From positions 372,001 to 436,000 of the forward strand of contig NZ_VTRT01000003.1 in the NCBI RefSeq assembly GCF_008274585.1: a stretch of 64,000 nucleotides of DNA. Direction: 5' to 3'. The DNA comes from Pedobacter sp. BS3 (lineage in GTDB: Bacteria > Bacteroidota > Bacteroidia > Sphingobacteriales > Sphingobacteriaceae). The notes under the pieces were generated by a model that worked only from the letters and a program-made list of their open reading frames with translations, did not search any database and had not been told where the DNA came from. Positions 50,168 to 58,913 of the stretch are shown in pieces (the first letter of the stretch is position 1; each line of letters opens with the position of its first letter). Position numbers and translations under genes: made by a program.

Positions 50168-53100
50168 ATGCAGCTTAACCGGCTTGAAATTAAGGGGTTT
50201 AAGAGTTTCGGGGATAAAATTACCATTAACTTTAACGAAGGAGTAACCGCTATTGTAGGGCCTAACGGGTGCGGAAAATCCAACGTAGTAGATTCCATAC
50301 GCTGGGTTTTAGGCGAGCAAAGTACCCGCATGCTTCGCTCCGAGAAAATGGAGAACATTATTTTTAACGGCAGCAAAACCCGCAAGCCCGCTAACCTGGC
50401 CGAAGTTTCGCTGACCTTCGACAATACCAAAAACATTCTGCCTACAGAATTCTCGCAGGTAACCATTACCCGAAAGCTCTATCGCAGCGGCGAAAGCGAA
50501 TATCGCTTAAACGACGTACAGTGCCGGCTCAAGGATATTACCGATCTTTTCCTGGATACCGGCATCGGGCCCGACTCCTACTCGATTATTGAGCTGAAAA
50601 TGATCGATGAGATCATCGCCAACAAAGAAGGCTCACGAAGGGCGCTTTTTGAGGAGGCTTCGGGCATATCGAAATACAAGCTTCGTAAAAAACAAACGTT
50701 TAACAAGCTGAAAGATACCGAGGCCGATTTAAGTCGTGTGGAGGATTTGCTGTTTGAAATTGAGAAAAACCTGAAAACCCTGGAAAACCAGGCGAAAAAA
50801 ACCGAACGGTATTACCGCATTAAAGAGCAGTATAAAGCGCTGAGCGTTGCGCTGGCATCGTTTAAAATAACCGGTTTTCGTGAAGCGCTGGAACGCCTGG
50901 AAACCCAGGAGCAGGAACAGGTTACACAGAAAAACAACATCGCTGCCGAAATGGATAAAACCGAGGCGCTTTTACAGCAGCAAAAACTGGACAGCCTGAC
51001 CAAAGAGAAAAACCTGTCGGTACAGCAAAAAGCTACTAACGAGTATATTGCCAAAATCCGGGCTTATGAAAGCGATAAGAAGATCAGGAATGAGCAGCTT
51101 CGTTTTTTGCAGGAAAAAGAAAAACGCCTCACTGAGGAAATTGACAGGGATAAAGGCCAGCTTAATCATATATTATATAATATCAAGCGCCTGACCGAAG
51201 AACATACGCTGGAATCGGAGAAACTGTTGGCATTGAAAGCGTCGCTCGAAGAGCAAAAAATCGCCCTTGATGAATTACGCGGCCAGCAACATTCGTCTAA
51301 AACCCGGCTGGATATTTTTAATAAAGAGAATACCGAACTGCAAAACCAGATTTATAAGCTGGAAAAGGATATTGCCGTGCTGCATATCCAGAAAGATGCG
51401 CTGGCACAGGAAAGCAGCCGGAATATTGCAGATGCCGAATCAAAAGAGATTGAGCTGAATGAGTTTAATAAGGCCATAGCCGACCTGGAAAGTCGCCTGG
51501 AAGGAAGGAAGGCCGAATACAGCTCGCTGCAGGAAATGGAAGATGCACTGCAACAGCAAATACAGGAAATCGAATCGCTTATTGTATCGGATAAAGACGA
51601 ACTGAACGCATTAAGTCGCAAGCTGGATGCCCGGCAGAACGAATATAATTTAACCAAATCGCTGGTAGATAACCTCGAAGGTTTTCCGGAATCTATCCGT
51701 TTTCTGCGCAAGCATGCCGGGTGGACAAAAAATGCACCCTTATTGTCGGATGTATTGTTTTGCCGCGAGGAATACCGCATTGCCATTGAAAATTACCTGG
51801 AACCGGTGATGAACCATTACGTGGTTTCAACGGCTGCCGAAGCCGCGAAAGCCATTCACCTGCTCAGCGATTCGTCAAAGGGACGGGCTAACTTTTTCGT
51901 TTTGGATGCGATCCCAGCTAAGGAAAAAACCGCAGCTAAACCACAGGATGGTTTAATTCAGGCACTCGAAATCATTGATGTAGAAGCCCGGTATCGCCCG
52001 CTGTGCGAAATGCTGCTGCATAATGTGTTTATTTTGCCTTCCGGCGATGAGAAGGAACTGGAGCAGCCTCTGCCCGGCGAACCGGTGGTGATACTCAGCG
52101 GAACCGGTAAATTTTCTAAAAGCCGGTATACCCTGTCCGGGGGATCGGTAGGTTTATTTGAAGGTAAACGTATCGGCCGGGCAAAAAACCTGGAAAACCT
52201 GTCGAAAGAAATACGCCGGCTGGAAACCGAGATCGGAAAGCTGAAAACCGATATTGAACAGAACTCGCAAAAGCTGGTCACCTTAAAGGAAAGCTCTAAA
52301 AAAGCCGAGATACAGGAGCTGCAAACCCAGGTAAACCGCCTGCAAAACGAGCTGATCACGGTAAAAACCAAGCAGGAACAGTATGCCGCATTTATACAAA
52401 ACAGCCAGAACCGCAAGCAGGATATCGAGACCAAAATTACGAACATTAATAATGAGCTGCTCACCGCCGAACCTGCATTAGCCGAACTAAAGGCTAACCT
52501 GCAGCTAAAAAGCGAAGAGCTCATTGAAAAACAACAGGCTTTCCAGGAACTGTCGGAACAGGTAACTACCGTTTCTACGGCTTACAACCAGGAAAATATC
52601 CGATTTCACCAGCAGCAAAATAAGGTTTCGGGCCTGGATAAAGACCTGGAATATCGCGACAGCCAGAAACGTAACCTGAGCGAACGGCTGGAAACTAATG
52701 GCTCTGAATTAACAAAAACCCAGGCTGATATTAAGGAAACGTTGCAGCATGTCGACCATTCGGACGATGATCTGCTGGCCATGTATACCGAAAAAGAGAA
52801 TCTTGAAAAAGGGCTGAATGAAGCCGAGCAGGATTATTATGCTTCGAAAGGGCTGATCACTGAAACGGAAAACAGGCTTTCTGCACAGCGTAAGCTCAAG
52901 GAACAAGCCGACCTGCTGCTGAACGAGATCAAGGATAAAAAGAACAATCTGCGTATCGACCTGAACGCGTTGAAGGAACGTTTATCGGTAGAGTTCTCCA
53001 TTGATATTAATGATCTGCTGGATAGTGAAGCCGATGAAAACATATCGGATGAAACCGAGGACAGCTTACGCGATAAAACCGAAAAGTTGAAACGGCAACT

Positions 53101-53713
53101 CGAAGATTTCGGCGCTATCAACCCAATGGCCATGGAAGCCTACCAGGAAATGGATGAACGCTACACGTTTATCCAGAACCAGAAAAAGGATTTGCTGGAT
53201 GCCAAAACATCCCTGCTGGAAACCATTAAAGAAATTGACGACACTGCCCGTGAACAGTTTATGAAGGCCTTTACCGCCGTTCGCGAAAACTTTATTCATG
53301 TTTTCCGCTCCTTGTTTAACGAAGAGGATTCCTGCGATCTTATCCTAACTGATCCGGATCAGCCTTTAGATTCCGACATTGAAATTATGGCCCGTCCTAA
53401 AGGGAAACGCCCTTTGTCTATCAACCAGCTTTCGGGCGGCGAAAAAACGCTGACAGCCACTGCCCTGCTCTTCTCGCTGTACCTGCTTAAACCGGCGCCT
53501 TTCTGTATTTTCGACGAAGTTGATGCTCCTCTGGATGACACCAACATCGACAAATTCAACAACATTATCCGCAAATTCTCAGATAATTCGCAATTCATTG
53601 TAGTATCGCACAACAAGCGCACCATTGCCAGCACCGATATTATTTATGGCGTAACCATGGTTGAACAAGGTGTTTCGCGGGTGGTAGCTGTAGATATGCG
53701 GGAAGTAGCGTAA
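50168..53713 (+). CDS. smc: Chromosome segregation protein SMC
   Basis: The 1181-residue condensin ATPase has an N-terminal head with MQLNRLEIKGFKSFGDK and Walker A GPNGCGKS at residues 31-38. Two long coiled-coil arms run at about 170-480 and 660-1000, and a hinge at about 500-650 (LVDNLEGFPESIRFLRKHA, FFVLDAIPA). The C-terminal head has LSGGEKTLTATALLFSLYLL and Walker B CIFDEVDAPLDD. It compacts and segregates chromosomes with ScpA/B. Length is standard. Confidence 0.97.
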   Translation: MQLNRLEIKGFKSFGDKITINFNEGVTAIVGPNGCGKSNVVDSIRWVLGEQSTRMLRSEKMENIIFNGSKTRKPANLAEVSLTFDNTKNILPTEFSQVTITRKLYRSGESEYRLNDVQCRLKDITDLFLDTGIGPDSYSIIELKMIDEIIANKEGSRRALFEEASGISKYKLRKKQTFNKLKDTEADLSRVEDLLFEIEKNLKTLENQAKKTERYYRIKEQYKALSVALASFKITGFREALERLETQEQEQVTQKNNIAAEMDKTEALLQQQKLDSLTKEKNLSVQQKATNEYIAKIRAYESDKKIRNEQLRFLQEKEKRLTEEIDRDKGQLNHILYNIKRLTEEHTLESEKLLALKASLEEQKIALDELRGQQHSSKTRLDIFNKENTELQNQIYKLEKDIAVLHIQKDALAQESSRNIADAESKEIELNEFNKAIADLESRLEGRKAEYSSLQEMEDALQQQIQEIESLIVSDKDELNALSRKLDARQNEYNLTKSLVDNLEGFPESIRFLRKHAGWTKNAPLLSDVLFCREEYRIAIENYLEPVMNHYVVSTAAEAAKAIHLLSDSSKGRANFFVLDAIPAKEKTAAKPQDGLIQALEIIDVEARYRPLCEMLLHNVFILPSGDEKELEQPLPGEPVVILSGTGKFSKSRYTLSGGSVGLFEGKRIGRAKNLENLSKEIRRLETEIGKLKTDIEQNSQKLVTLKESSKKAEIQELQTQVNRLQNELITVKTKQEQYAAFIQNSQNRKQDIETKITNINNELLTAEPALAELKANLQLKSEELIEKQQAFQELSEQVTTVSTAYNQENIRFHQQQNKVSGLDKDLEYRDSQKRNLSERLETNGSELTKTQADIKETLQHVDHSDDDLLAMYTEKENLEKGLNEAEQDYYASKGLITETENRLSAQRKLKEQADLLLNEIKDKKNNLRIDLNALKERLSVEFSIDINDLLDSEADENISDETEDSLRDKTEKLKRQLEDFGAINPMAMEAYQEMDERYTFIQNQKKDLLDAKTSLLETIKEIDDTAREQFMKAFTAVRENFIHVFRSLFNEEDSCDLILTDPDQPLDSDIEIMARPKGKRPLSINQLSGGEKTLTATALLFSLYLLKPAPFCIFDEVDAPLDDTNIDKFNNIIRKFSDNSQFIVVSHNKRTIASTDIIYGVTMVEQGVSRVVAVDMREVA

Positions 53714-53892: not shown

Positions 53893-53995
53893 TTATTTTG
53901 CAACAGAATCTTTAGCAGCAGAAGCAGCTGAATCTACAGTATCTTTAGCAGCAGAAGCAGTTGAATCTACAGTATCTTTAGCAGCAGAAGCAGCT
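53893..53995. repeat. 33-bp tandem repeat in the small lipoprotein gene
   Basis: The unit TCTTTAGCAGCAGAAGCAGC-TGAATCTACAGTA occurs about three times with one or two substitutions, so copy number could change by slippage without breaking the frame. Confidence 0.85.
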
Positions 53996-54102
53996 GAATC
54001 AATAGTGTCAGAAGTAGATTCTGAAGTTTTGTTTGAGTTACAAGCAGCAACTGATAAAGAAATAGCTAAAGCTAAGAAACCGAATTTGAATAAATTTTTC
54101 AT
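53893..54102 (-). CDS. Small repeat-containing lipoprotein
   Basis: From the Met at 54100-54102 the product is 69 residues: a lipoprotein signal MKNLFKFGFLALAISLSVAAC (Cys 21) and a tail of repeated DTVDSAASAAK units (about four, the first and last shorter). The upstream part of the frame is AT-rich and not family-like. The repeats are nearly identical at DNA level (33-bp unit) and would form an amphipathic, LEA-like helix. Function unknown; an envelope stress or spacer role is only a guess. Confidence 0.8.
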   Translation of the reverse strand: MKNLFKFGFLALAISLSVAACNSNKTSESTSDTIDSAASAAKDTVDSTASAAKDTVDSAASAAKDSVAK

Positions 54103-54337
54103 TGTCTTTTGTCTAAAAGTAATTAATAAGTTTACTCTTAATACCGGTATCATCAAAAGGTAACCTCAAAAAATAAAAAAAAATAAAAAAAGATATATAG
54201 TGTTGATTTCCAGTACGAAAAAAATAGCATAAAAATGAGATACCCTATCGCCATCACCTCAATGTATATAAATTGCTATTCGTGAATAATTTTTTTTCTA
54301 TCATTGGGTTACAATTTACCGTATAGCGTATTAAGTA

Positions 54338-54928
54338 GTGAACAGACCGATAAAGAGATCATTTCCAGAAGATAAAGGGTTTATACTGGGTATTTTAAAC
54401 AACTCAAAAGAAACCCTGGATGAATTGTATAGAACCTATTTCCCGGTGATCTTGCAGTTTGTCTTATCCAATAATGGTGATGAGGACGATGCTAAGGATA
54501 TTTTTCAGGAGTCTGTTATTGTTCTTTATAACAAGGTAAAAAGCGGAAATTTTGAATTAAGCAGTAAGCTTAAAACGTTTCTTTATTCGGTTGCCCGGCG
54601 GTTGTGGTTAAAACGCTTAACACATCAAAGCCGTAATACCAGCAATATTTCCGATTTTGAAGAAATTATCCCGGTAGAGAATGATATTGAGATGCACGAG
54701 GAGCGGGATATACAATTTAAAAAAATGGAACAGGCCTTACACCAGATCGGCGAGCCCTGTAAAACCATTTTAGAAGATTTTTACATGAACGGCAGATCCA
54801 TGCAGGAGATCTGCGAACGCTTTGGCTATACCAATGCAGATAATGCTAAAAATCAGAAATACAAATGCCTGCAACGCCTTAAAAAGCTGTTTTTTCAAGG
54901 CACAAACCAGATAGAATATGAAAAGTGA
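54338..54928 (+). CDS. ECF sigma factor coupled to an anti-sigma/protease gene
   Basis: From a GTG start, the 196-residue sigma-70 factor has region 2 (LDELYRTYFPVILQFVLSNN, DAKDIFQESVIVLYNKVKSG, LKTFLYSVARRLWLKRL) and region 4 (MEQALHQIGEPCKTILEDFY, GRSMQEICERFGYTNADNAK). Its 3' end overlaps the start of the downstream gene by 11 nt, so the two are translationally coupled. The partner has a cytoplasmic helical domain, one membrane helix and a periplasmic protease domain, suggesting it is the cognate anti-sigma factor. Confidence 0.93.
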   Translation: MNRPIKRSFPEDKGFILGILNNSKETLDELYRTYFPVILQFVLSNNGDEDDAKDIFQESVIVLYNKVKSGNFELSSKLKTFLYSVARRLWLKRLTHQSRNTSNISDFEEIIPVENDIEMHEERDIQFKKMEQALHQIGEPCKTILEDFYMNGRSMQEICERFGYTNADNAKNQKYKCLQRLKKLFFQGTNQIEYEK

Positions 54929-56021
54929 AACAGACATGATCGATCGTATTGAGGCATACCTGAGGGACGAGATGAATGCAGAAGAGCGTGCCGCTTTTGA
55001 TCAGTTGCGCAGACAGCATCCCGGCATAGACCATCAGGTAGTAGCTCATCAAACCCTGATGAAGCAATTTGAAGATTACGCAGCTCAGAAAAAGCTGATG
55101 GCAGATATGGAAGATATTCATGCCAGCCTGGATATTGCCCGGATCAGGCAGGAAGTGATGCCTGAACCTGGTATGGTTGTTTCGCTTTGGAAAAAATATC
55201 AATCAATTGTATCTGTGGCTGCTTCGGTAGCGGTTGTTGCCGTAGTTGGCACCTTACTGGCCACCGGAACGCTGTTCAATAAAAACGCTCATTCTGATTA
55301 CAATGCATTGCGCCGCGAAATGAGCCAGAAGATCAATAATATTGCCCGCTCGCAAAATGCGCTTATACGCGACATTAAAAAGCCGGCAAACAGCACTGTT
55401 AATCCCGGAGAATATGGCGGAACCGGCTTTGCTTTAACCGCAAACGGTTATGTGGTAACTAACTATCATGTGGTTAACGGCTCTGATTCTGTATACATCC
55501 AAAATACCGAAGGCGATTCGTATAAGGTGCGCACCGTGTATGTGGATCCGGCTTATGATATTGCCATTTTGCAAATCATTGATCCGGCCTTTAAAGCATA
55601 CCGTTCATTACCCTACACTATTAAAAGATCCTCGTCAGACCTGGGAGAAAACGTATATACCATTGGTTTTCCGCGTGATGAACCCGTGTTAGGTATCGGT
55701 TACCTGAGTTCGCGAACAGGCTATTCAGGCGATACGACGGCATACCAGGTTTCTATCCCGGTAAACCCGGGCAACAGCGGCGGCCCTTTGCTGGATAATC
55801 GCGGAAATGTTATCGGTATCATCAGCGGCAAGCAAACCCAAACCGATGGCGCTGCTTTTGCCATCAAATCAAGCTACCTGCTTAAGGCCATACAAAATAT
55901 CCCACAGGATTCACTGAAAGAAAAGCTGAGCCTGAGCAAAAAGAATACGTTGGCAGGATTAAGCCGGACAGACCAGATACGTAAAATGCAGGATTACATC
56001 TTTATGGTGAAAGTGTATTAA
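54918..56021 (+). CDS. Membrane-anchored trypsin-like serine protease with anti-sigma-like N-terminus
   Basis: This 367-residue protein has three parts: a charged helical cytoplasmic region (1-92) that opens like an anti-sigma/zinc-finger-type factor (DMIDRIEAYLRDEMNAEERA), one membrane helix (about 96-118), and a periplasmic S1C protease domain. The triad is His 184 (TNYHVV), Asp 214 (AYDIAIL) and Ser 287 (GNSGGP), all intact. There is no PDZ domain, unlike DegS and DegP. Coupling to the sigma gene suggests that envelope signals sensed by the protease part control sigma release. Confidence 0.88.
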   Translation: MKSETDMIDRIEAYLRDEMNAEERAAFDQLRRQHPGIDHQVVAHQTLMKQFEDYAAQKKLMADMEDIHASLDIARIRQEVMPEPGMVVSLWKKYQSIVSVAASVAVVAVVGTLLATGTLFNKNAHSDYNALRREMSQKINNIARSQNALIRDIKKPANSTVNPGEYGGTGFALTANGYVVTNYHVVNGSDSVYIQNTEGDSYKVRTVYVDPAYDIAILQIIDPAFKAYRSLPYTIKRSSSDLGENVYTIGFPRDEPVLGIGYLSSRTGYSGDTTAYQVSIPVNPGNSGGPLLDNRGNVIGIISGKQTQTDGAAFAIKSSYLLKAIQNIPQDSLKEKLSLSKKNTLAGLSRTDQIRKMQDYIFMVKVY

Positions 56022-56330: not shown

Positions 56331-57680
56331 ATGCAATCATTTGAACTTGACAGATCCGATATCCAGCGGCTCAGGCAAGCCTTAGAGCAGGACGATGAAG
56401 CCTTACGGGTCTTGCTGAAAGAATATCATGCTTCAGAAATTGCTATTCTATTTGAGCGTTTACCGCAGGAATCACGAGAGCGCATTATTCATATCCTCCC
56501 GGCGGATGTCGCCTCAGAGGTGATCTCAGAAATGGATGCCGAGATCCATCCCGAGAAGATACTCGATAACCTGCATCCCGAAAAACGCTCTGAAATTGTG
56601 CAGGAGTTGGATTATGATGATGCAACCGACATTATCAGTCAGTTGCCTGAGCATCGCCAGAATGCTATTCTGGAAGATCTGACCGACGAAAATGCCCGTC
56701 ACATACGCAGCCTGCTTGCTTATCCCCAGGATACCGCCGGTGGAATAATGAACACCCGGGTTATCAAGATCAACCAGGGATTAAGTAAAAAAGATGCTAT
56801 CGATGAGATCATCCGGCAGTCGGAAGAAATGGAAGAATTTTATACCATTAACGTAGTCGACGACGATAATCGCCTGATAGGCATCGTTTCATTAAAAGAT
56901 ATTATCCGCTCAAAGCACAATGCCCACATCAATGAATTAGTTAATACCGAATTTGTATACGTAAAGGCCGAAACCGACCAGGAAGAAGTTGCCCGGCTCA
57001 TTGCACAATATAATCTCACCAGCATTCCGGTAGTAGATGATACAATGTATTTATTGGGTCGTATCACATTCGATGATGTAATAGATGTACTGGAACAGGA
57101 AAATACCGAGGATATGCTGAAGTTTTCGGGCGTTTCTGAAGACGAGGAACTGTCAGGTAACTGGAAAGATGCTGTAAAAAGCCGTTTGCCCTGGCTGATA
57201 ATTAACCTGGGAACAGCTTTTTTAGCAGCTTCTGTAATGCGTTATTTTGATTCAACCATTGCCCGGTTGGTAGTACTTGCCGGATACAGCACCATCATTG
57301 CCGGAATGGGCGGAAACGCCGCTACCCAATCGCTGGCTGTAACCATCCGGCGTATATCACTCAGCGATTTAACCGATATGCAGGCCTATCGCACCGTATT
57401 AAAAGAAGTAACCGTAGGCGTAATAAACGGCGCTGCAAACGGCTTTATCGTATTTTTATTTGCCCTGGTGTATGATCATAACCTGATGCTGGGTATTGTA
57501 ATATTCCTGGCCATGATCGGCAACCTGTTTATTGCCGGTATTACGGGAGCATCCATACCGTTGTTGCTCAAACGTTTAGGCATTGATCCGGCCATAGCCT
57601 CATCCATCATCATCACTACCTTTACAGATGTATTCGGTTTTTTGCTTCTACTGGGTCTTGCCAGTAAGTTGCTGCTTTAA
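56331..57680 (+). CDS. mgtE: Magnesium transporter MgtE
   Basis: The 449-residue protein has an N-terminal helical MgtE_N domain (about 20-125; HPEKRSEIVQELDYDDATDI, LLAYPQDTAGGIMNTRVIKI), two CBS domains (about 130-250) that sense cytoplasmic Mg, and five membrane helices from about 285 with AGMGGNAATQSLAVTIRRIS, GAANGFIVFLFA and IAGITGASIPLLLKRLGIDP, then a C-terminal TDVFGFLLLLG helix. It is a Mg2+-gated channel of the inner membrane. Length and order are standard. Confidence 0.97.
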   Translation: MQSFELDRSDIQRLRQALEQDDEALRVLLKEYHASEIAILFERLPQESRERIIHILPADVASEVISEMDAEIHPEKILDNLHPEKRSEIVQELDYDDATDIISQLPEHRQNAILEDLTDENARHIRSLLAYPQDTAGGIMNTRVIKINQGLSKKDAIDEIIRQSEEMEEFYTINVVDDDNRLIGIVSLKDIIRSKHNAHINELVNTEFVYVKAETDQEEVARLIAQYNLTSIPVVDDTMYLLGRITFDDVIDVLEQENTEDMLKFSGVSEDEELSGNWKDAVKSRLPWLIINLGTAFLAASVMRYFDSTIARLVVLAGYSTIIAGMGGNAATQSLAVTIRRISLSDLTDMQAYRTVLKEVTVGVINGAANGFIVFLFALVYDHNLMLGIVIFLAMIGNLFIAGITGASIPLLLKRLGIDPAIASSIIITTFTDVFGFLLLLGLASKLLL

Positions 57681-57908: not shown

Positions 57909-58913
57909 ATGACCGAAATCAGGAATAACTGGACCAAAGAAGAAATTTCTGCCATATATCATAGTCCATTGCTGGATTTAATTTACCGGGCGGCAACCGT
58001 GCACCGTGAAAATAAGGACTATGCCGAAGTACAGATCAGCAGCCTGCTCTCCATCAAAACCGGCGGATGCCCGGAAGATTGCGCCTATTGTCCGCAGGCA
58101 GCACGTTATCACACCGATGTAGAGGTGCAGGCCTTAATGTCGGTAGAGCAGGTAACCGATGCAGCGCAAAAAGCAAAAGCAGCCGGTGCATCACGTTTAT
58201 GTATGGGCGCTGCCTGGCGTGAAGTGCGTGATAACCGCGATTTTGACCGGGTTATTGATATGGTAAAAGCCGTTAATTCAATGGATATGGAAGTATGTTG
58301 CACTCTGGGCATGTTAACAGAATCGCAGGCCCAACGCTTAGCCGATGCCGGTTTGTATGCATACAACCATAACTTAGATACTTCTGAAGATGATTACAAA
58401 CGCATTATTACCACACGCACCTACGATGAGCGCCTCAAGACCATAGAAAATGTCCGCAAAGCAAAGCTGACCGTATGTAGTGGCGGCATCATCGGTCTGG
58501 GCGAAACGGTAGAAGACCGGATAGCTATGCTGAAAACTTTATCCAATATGCCCAAGCATCCTGAATCGGTACCCATCAATGCATTGGTTCCGGTTAAAGG
58601 AACACCTTTGGCAGATCAACCCAGGGTTCCAGTATGGGATATGGTTAGAATGATCGCTACAGCACGCATTATTATGCCCAAAACAGTAGTACGTTTATCT
58701 GCAGGTCGTACGGAAATGAGCATGACCGACCAGGCCTTATGTTTTATGGCTGGAGCTAACTCCATTTTTGCCGGCGATAAATTACTCACTACACCAAATC
58801 CGGCATTCAGTGAAGATATGCAGATGTTTGAGATACTCGGATTAAAACCCCGTGAAGCATTTAAAAATGGACGGCCTGTTGTCACACAACAAGAAGCGCT
58901 TCATGTAGAATAA
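57909..58913 (+). CDS. bioB: Biotin synthase
   Basis: The 334-residue radical SAM enzyme inserts sulfur into dethiobiotin. The [4Fe-4S] cluster motif [12 protein letters not shown], with Cys-x3-Cys-x2-Cys, is at about 50-61. Further features are [55 protein letters not shown] and RLSAGRTEM, the last with the conserved [2Fe-2S] cluster Arg. Length matches E. coli BioB. No other biotin genes are in the window. Confidence 0.97.

Follow-up and report, generated by a model that had tools for sequence, protein, structure and literature searches.

Two overlapping genes in the genome of Pedobacter sp. BS3 encode an ECF sigma factor and a membrane protein in which an anti-sigma-like domain and an HtrA-like serine protease are joined in a single chain. 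We consider it probable (roughly 0.6) that this fusion combines the anti-sigma factor and the site-1 protease of a RIP switch, in which a signal would lead to site-1 cleavage, cleavage by RseP, release of the sigma factor, and induction of the operon together with a small lipoprotein. The pair represents a conserved system that is nearly universal in one Bacteroidota family and also occurs in nine others; in it, a single protein appears to serve as both the brake and the site-1 protease. The system makes two questions testable, i.e., the switching of an HtrA domain that lacks a PDZ domain and intramolecular site-1 cleavage.

Organization of the locus

The window (i.e., the whole 64,000-nucleotide stretch of DNA that was analyzed) carries the ECF sigma factor gene at positions 54338..54928 of the forward strand (196 amino acids; GTG start) and the fusion gene at 54918..56021 of the same strand (367 amino acids; ATG start). 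An initial annotation of this DNA had given the span of the two genes, their 11-nt overlap, and the numbers of the catalytic residues, and these proved right. The product of 54338-54928 is an ECF sigma factor: it scored 83.3 bits against TIGR02937 (sigma70-ECF; cut-off, 42.9), also matched Pfam Sigma70_r2, and contains sigma2 and sigma4 regions with no sigma3. The neighboring genes, as read by eye from their translations, encode SMC (50168-53713), an MgtE-type Mg2+ transporter (56331-57680), and BioB (57909-58913).

Distribution and linkage of the sigma/fusion pair

The fusion occurs as a single copy in 137 of the 151 sampled genomes of the window's family (130/138 among the good genomes), one of the 137 being spread over two contigs, and an ortholog of the sigma factor was found in 136 of the 151. 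The named relatives comprise Pedobacter, Pelobium, and other Sphingobacteriales. In all 135 family genomes that have both genes on a single contig, the two are adjacent and co-directional, and the gap between them has a median of 16 nt; the two exceptions to adjacency in the family are one match at a contig end and one truncated match. A class-wide sample yielded 37 further full-length or near-full-length fusions from nine other families (as counted from the table of matches), and 36 of these 37 loci have a sigma gene immediately upstream. This proportion is quoted as 36/36 testable loci, locus L078 having been set aside because its DNA gave no sigma match. In L078 (G368:C1:2312-3379), the fusion match starts about 2.3 kb into the contig, with upstream flank present on that strand, and the locus may be a true exception or may hold a diverged or broken sigma copy. 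A phylum sample searched at an E value of 1e-60 yielded no full-length fusion beyond the class. The linkage is kept in all testable loci across ten families, very divergent members included, and the pairing is, on the evidence of gene order, far beyond chance.

Conservation of the pair was one of the points that the initial annotation had left to be checked, and the counts above uphold it. The opposite case that it had raised, i.e., homologs that keep the protease and lack the adjacent sigma gene, was also sought. Six sampled paralogs have the same protease and C-terminal tail behind other N termini, and the DNA fetched around each of them contained no sigma gene beside the paralog (6/6). Because these sigma-less paralogs are also without the N-terminal domain of the fusion, the N-terminal domain travels with the sigma gene and the protease alone does not. 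Among seven family genomes without the pair that were checked, six encode a Do-type protease.

The N-terminal domain as a candidate anti-sigma domain

The N-terminal cytoplasmic domain of the fusion (N-domain; residues 1-85; 54918..55172, forward strand) was delimited from modeled helices and from the family matches of its homologs. An AlphaFold model of the fusion, built from 39 aligned sequences, had a mean pLDDT of 83.6 and placed N-terminal helices at residues 4-15, 21-33, 35-70, and 73-80 with high confidence. These predicted helices, together with the membrane helix behind them, give the fusion the layout of a class I anti-sigma factor (ASDI type), which has an N-terminal cytoplasmic domain of three to four helices, here with one membrane helix after it. 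Searched as a single sequence, the N-domain of the window gave weak matches to NF052375 (E, 0.002) and zf-HC2 (E, 0.035), the former scoring 17.8 bits against a cut-off of 100 and thus lying below the curated level. When 75 N-domains were scanned against NCBIfam, anti-sigma models were the three most frequent matches (NF052375 in 27 members, with a best E value of 6e-7; LIMLP_03685 in 6; and PRK13920 in 5), and zf-HC2 was the most frequent Pfam match (14 members). Since these matches lie below curated cut-offs, we take them as support for the anti-sigma reading and not as membership. The zinc-binding Hx3Cx2C motif is absent from the N-domains: H44 is present in 80 of the 97 homologs, and there are no cysteines at the required places. 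A survey of ECF systems described this motif as optional in class I anti-sigma factors; among the ECF genes of Bacteroidetes, it found only 6% with a class I anti-sigma domain next to them and left the control of the rest unexplained (PMC7406223).

Several relatives have the sigma and fusion genes in one frame, with the sigma stop codon as the sole interruption. For one of these relatives (L063), the sigma factor and N-domain were modeled as one chain of 283 residues by in-frame read-through of the stop, the AlphaFold input holding 16 such read-through rows and 51 single-gene rows. The model had a mean pLDDT of 90.8, with sigma2 and sigma4 at high confidence. Its pTM of 0.86 therefore places sigma2, sigma4, and the N-domain together in one predicted body, in a type of prediction (one chain with a short linker) that in itself favors sigma/N-domain contact. 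The sigma part of the model differed from anti-sigma-bound ECF structures by rmsd values of 8-14 A (8.3 A for RsbN-BldN, 11.6 A for SigmaE-RseA, and 12.1 A for AlgU-MucA) and from RNA-polymerase-bound ECF structures mostly by about 20-22 A, with one at 15.8 A. The predicted conformation is nearer to the anti-sigma-bound than to most of the polymerase-bound structures and is identical to none. Read-through of the sigma stop was also considered as real biology and was rejected; the genes are in frame in 23 of about 100 loci, which does not exceed the one-third that chance alone would give.

The initial annotation had read residues 1-92 as resembling an anti-sigma N terminus and had proposed a structure prediction of the complex with the sigma factor. 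This reading is well supported in silico by the linkage, by the recurrent family matches, and by the compact sigma/N-domain body predicted for the relative. The same evidence bears on a simpler view, in which the N-domain has no anti-sigma function and the protease is merely a target gene of the sigma factor that is co-transcribed with it. Target genes are common in sigma operons, and the scores under the curated cut-offs would suit this view. We nevertheless consider it very unlikely: the fusion is never parted from its sigma gene in any testable genome, the paralogous proteases that lack the N-domain have no adjoining sigma gene, anti-sigma families lead the N-domain matches, and the N-domain is predicted to form a compact body with the sigma factor.

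The N-domain might instead be a positive partner of the sigma factor, i.e., a pro-sigma domain as in some FecR-type regulators, so that the freed N-domain/sigma complex would activate transcription. Such N-domains have been described for cell-surface signaling systems (PMC7593790). In our case, the modeled sigma2/sigma4/N-domain body should interfere with the binding of polymerase, and the leading N-domain matches are classical anti-sigma families, which makes a pro-sigma role highly improbable.

The HtrA-like protease domain

The protease domain (residues 164-326; 55407..55895, forward strand) matched Pfam Trypsin_2 at residues 168-301 with a score above the cut-off (E, 4.9e-26). In the model, it adopts a trypsin fold, and the chain then forms a helix and a strand at its C terminus, both modeled with high confidence. 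Foldseek matched the protease part to HtrA1 and DegS structures (E, about 1e-12), and VIA-align to the same proteins gave a Z score of about 20 and rmsd values of mostly 2-4 A over 160-170 residues. The catalytic triad, which had been described as intact, comprises His184 (55467..55469), Asp214 (55557..55559), and Ser287 (55776..55778), all on the forward strand. These three residues are invariant in 97/97 homologs, and catalysis by the fusion protease is, judging from this conservation, under selection. The claim that the protein lacks a PDZ domain was likewise confirmed; a Pfam search gave no PDZ match in the fusion, and in the model only about 40 residues follow the protease core before the chain stops, where DegS continues into its PDZ domain. 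With no PDZ domain, the signal would therefore not be read in the manner of DegS, through OMP C termini.

A Trypsin_2 scan of the window's genome returned two proteins, i.e., the fusion and a Do-type protease, and no DegS-like candidate. The genome also encodes a single M50 site-2 protease of the RseP type (E, 1.7e-56). The intact triad and the missing DegS-like candidate are compatible with self-cleavage that would need no separate site-1 protease, as had been proposed.

At the C terminus, a conserved helix and strand (residues 348-367, ending in YIFMVKVY; 55959..56018, forward strand) have a pLDDT of about 94 and low entropy. The strand is conserved to the last residues of the fusion, and YIFMVKVY or a similar strand is also present in the paralogs with other N termini (L120-L125). 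A circular permutation with YIFMVKVY as the first HtrA strand was tried and gave no better match, the permuted profile scoring 60.6 bits against the Do protease versus 60.9 bits. Alignments of the protease to HtrA structures mostly begin past the first HtrA strand, and the C-terminal strand may replace this first strand by permutation.

The membrane helix and a candidate site-2 region

The membrane helix (residues about 96-116; 55203..55265, forward strand) was assigned from hydrophobicity, from a charge bias in the 97 homologs, and from the model, in which a helix spanning residues 86-115 contains the membrane segment and a low-confidence linker lies behind it. Lys and Arg residues are more numerous before the hydrophobic segment than after it in 79 of the 97 homologs and less numerous in 10, a distribution consistent with an N-in topology of the fusion. 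Outside the protease, A101 and A102 are the only residues invariant in the 97 homologs. The triplet at residues 100-102 (V100-A101-A102 in the window; 55215..55223, forward strand) reads VAA in 55 and IAA in 36 homologs, i.e., (V/I)AA in 91/97, and xAA in the rest. The AA pair sits inside the hydrophobic stretch at a depth of 3 to 10 residues, in most cases 5 to 7, and the spacing between A102 and T169 is fairly steady across the homologs (53-74 residues).

In the membrane helix of RseA, RseP cleaves behind a Val-Ala-Ala, and the new end is recognized by ClpXP. For FecR, the cut made by E. coli RseP falls near residue 85, about 5 residues into the membrane segment 80-100 (PMC8144685). By analogy, the invariant AA provides a suggestive lead to a site-2 cleavage region at V100-A101-A102; the invariance could stem from helix packing instead.

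A probable one-chain cascade and its main rival

At rest, the N-domain would grip the sigma factor through sigma2 and sigma4, as the model predicts. A periplasmic signal would then reach the PDZ-less protease or its periplasmic linker (residues 117-163; 55266..55406, forward strand; low model confidence), which is the proposed site-1 target region, and the protease would cut this linker, either in the chain to which it belongs or in a neighboring copy. At site 2, the single RseP-type M50 protease would cut the membrane helix near (V/I)-A-A. The N-domain would be degraded or opened, and the freed sigma factor would transcribe its own operon and a divergent lipoprotein gene from GGGTTAC-N15-GTATTAA promoters.

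The main rival to this cascade is signaling without self-cleavage, in which the protease would handle damaged or mislocalized envelope proteins and its occupancy would free the sigma factor through a change in the membrane protein, or an outside protease (e.g., of the Do type) would cut first. A quality-control enzyme would also keep an intact triad, a Do-type protease is encoded in the genome, and the DegS and AlgW systems have the protease and its target on separate chains (PMC7593790 and PMC8545111). The obligate fusion of protease and N-domain in the 97 homologs and the steady length of the linker suit a short-range action, however, and the invariant AA suggests that the membrane helix is itself a substrate. 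We regard signaling of this kind as unlikely.

The cascade would resemble the SigmaE-RseA-DegS-RseP system of E. coli and the AlgU-MucA-AlgW system, with an ECF sigma factor, a one-pass anti-sigma factor, a membrane HtrA protease facing the periplasm, and a site-2 protease encoded in the genome. Unlike SigmaE-RseA-DegS-RseP, the putative anti-sigma factor and the HtrA-like protease here form one chain that has no PDZ domain, no RseB-like partner is encoded in the operon, and the promoter and the predicted regulon (a small lipoprotein) differ. In IutY of P. putida, as in further sigma/anti-sigma fusions, two parts of a sigma switch likewise share one polypeptide under proteolytic control (PMC8999054). 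BlaR1-type receptors unite a sensor and a protease in one membrane protein and undergo signal-triggered autocleavage (PMC7593790), but BlaR1 targets a DNA-binding repressor rather than an anti-sigma domain and contains another kind of protease. The MarP/HtrA membrane-anchored serine proteases share the anchored trypsin-like domain and gave the best NCBIfam match of the fusion protease, but this match is far under the cut-off (90 of 250 bits), the membrane part of MarP differs, and MarP has no anti-sigma domain. Autoproteolysis of FecR-type proteins follows another chemistry, an N-O acyl shift. The FecR-type anti-sigma factors FoxR, PupR, and FpvR are reported to process themselves before signal recognition (work cited in PMC7593790); unlike the fusion, they have no trypsin-like domain. 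The literature searched contained no account of a trypsin-like protease joined to an anti-sigma factor, and an earlier listing in a large ECF reclassification is possible. The pieces are thus known, and their combination in one protein appears to be new.

Promoter motif, small lipoprotein, and predicted regulon

When the DNA upstream of the sigma genes was listed, the motif GGGTTAC-N15-GTATTAA was found directly before the sigma start. In the window, this putative sigma-dependent promoter lies at 54306..54334 on the forward strand, 3 nt before the GTG of the sigma gene, and a divergent copy, GGTTAC-N15-GTATTAA (54138..54165, reverse strand), leads to a small lipoprotein gene (53893..54102, reverse strand; 69 amino acids, MKNLFKFGFLALAISLSVAACNSNK...) that is a predicted member of the regulon. 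The window contains two matches to the motif, compared with 0.02 expected. A relaxed form of the motif is present at the sigma gene in 57/57 family loci and 33/36 loci of other families, versus 0.0006 in shuffled upstream DNA, and among family genomes the exact motif was detected in 20/20 that carry the pair and in 0/5 that do not (Fisher P, about 2e-5, with relatedness ignored). From this co-occurrence, we infer that the motif is recognized by the paired sigma factor, which would be autoregulated. Both the conserved putative promoter of the sigma gene and its divergent counterpart at the small lipoprotein gene are new here.

In 54 of the 57 family loci, 2-3 nt separate the end of the motif from the sigma start codon (mostly GTG), and spacing between motif and start is longer in the other families. 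With the predicted -10 element ending so close to the start codon, the sigma mRNA of the family is therefore probably leaderless. A divergent lipoprotein gene with the motif is present in 33/35 family loci and in 20/36 loci of other families; in the other 16/36, the combination was not found by the filter used. The pair appears, on this pattern of motifs, to switch on itself and the small lipoprotein, and this defined promoter pair, together with the lipoprotein, supplies a ready readout. A more elaborate form of the self-cutting one-chain switch, in which the induced lipoprotein would feed back on the protease and the cell would gauge lipoprotein export by making more of it, is speculative, and we think it rather doubtful.

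The regulon looks small because matches are found mainly at the sigma locus in most of the family genomes that bear the pair. In the whole genome of the window, the relaxed motif has 6 matches, two of them in the window, versus 5 for the reversed pattern. A wide regulon was thus rejected, the relaxed matches elsewhere in this genome being at chance level. One of them, a copy with the exact motif, is located a short way ahead of an apparent glyA gene in the window's own genome (L118, about 2442-2504; G000:C6:12241-12269), but a genome of the same genus has exact matches at the sigma locus only. The lipoprotein of the window is of low complexity, with DTVDSAASAAK-type repeats, and two other loci (L012 and L020) have two or three tandem copies of the lipoprotein gene, with the motif before each copy.
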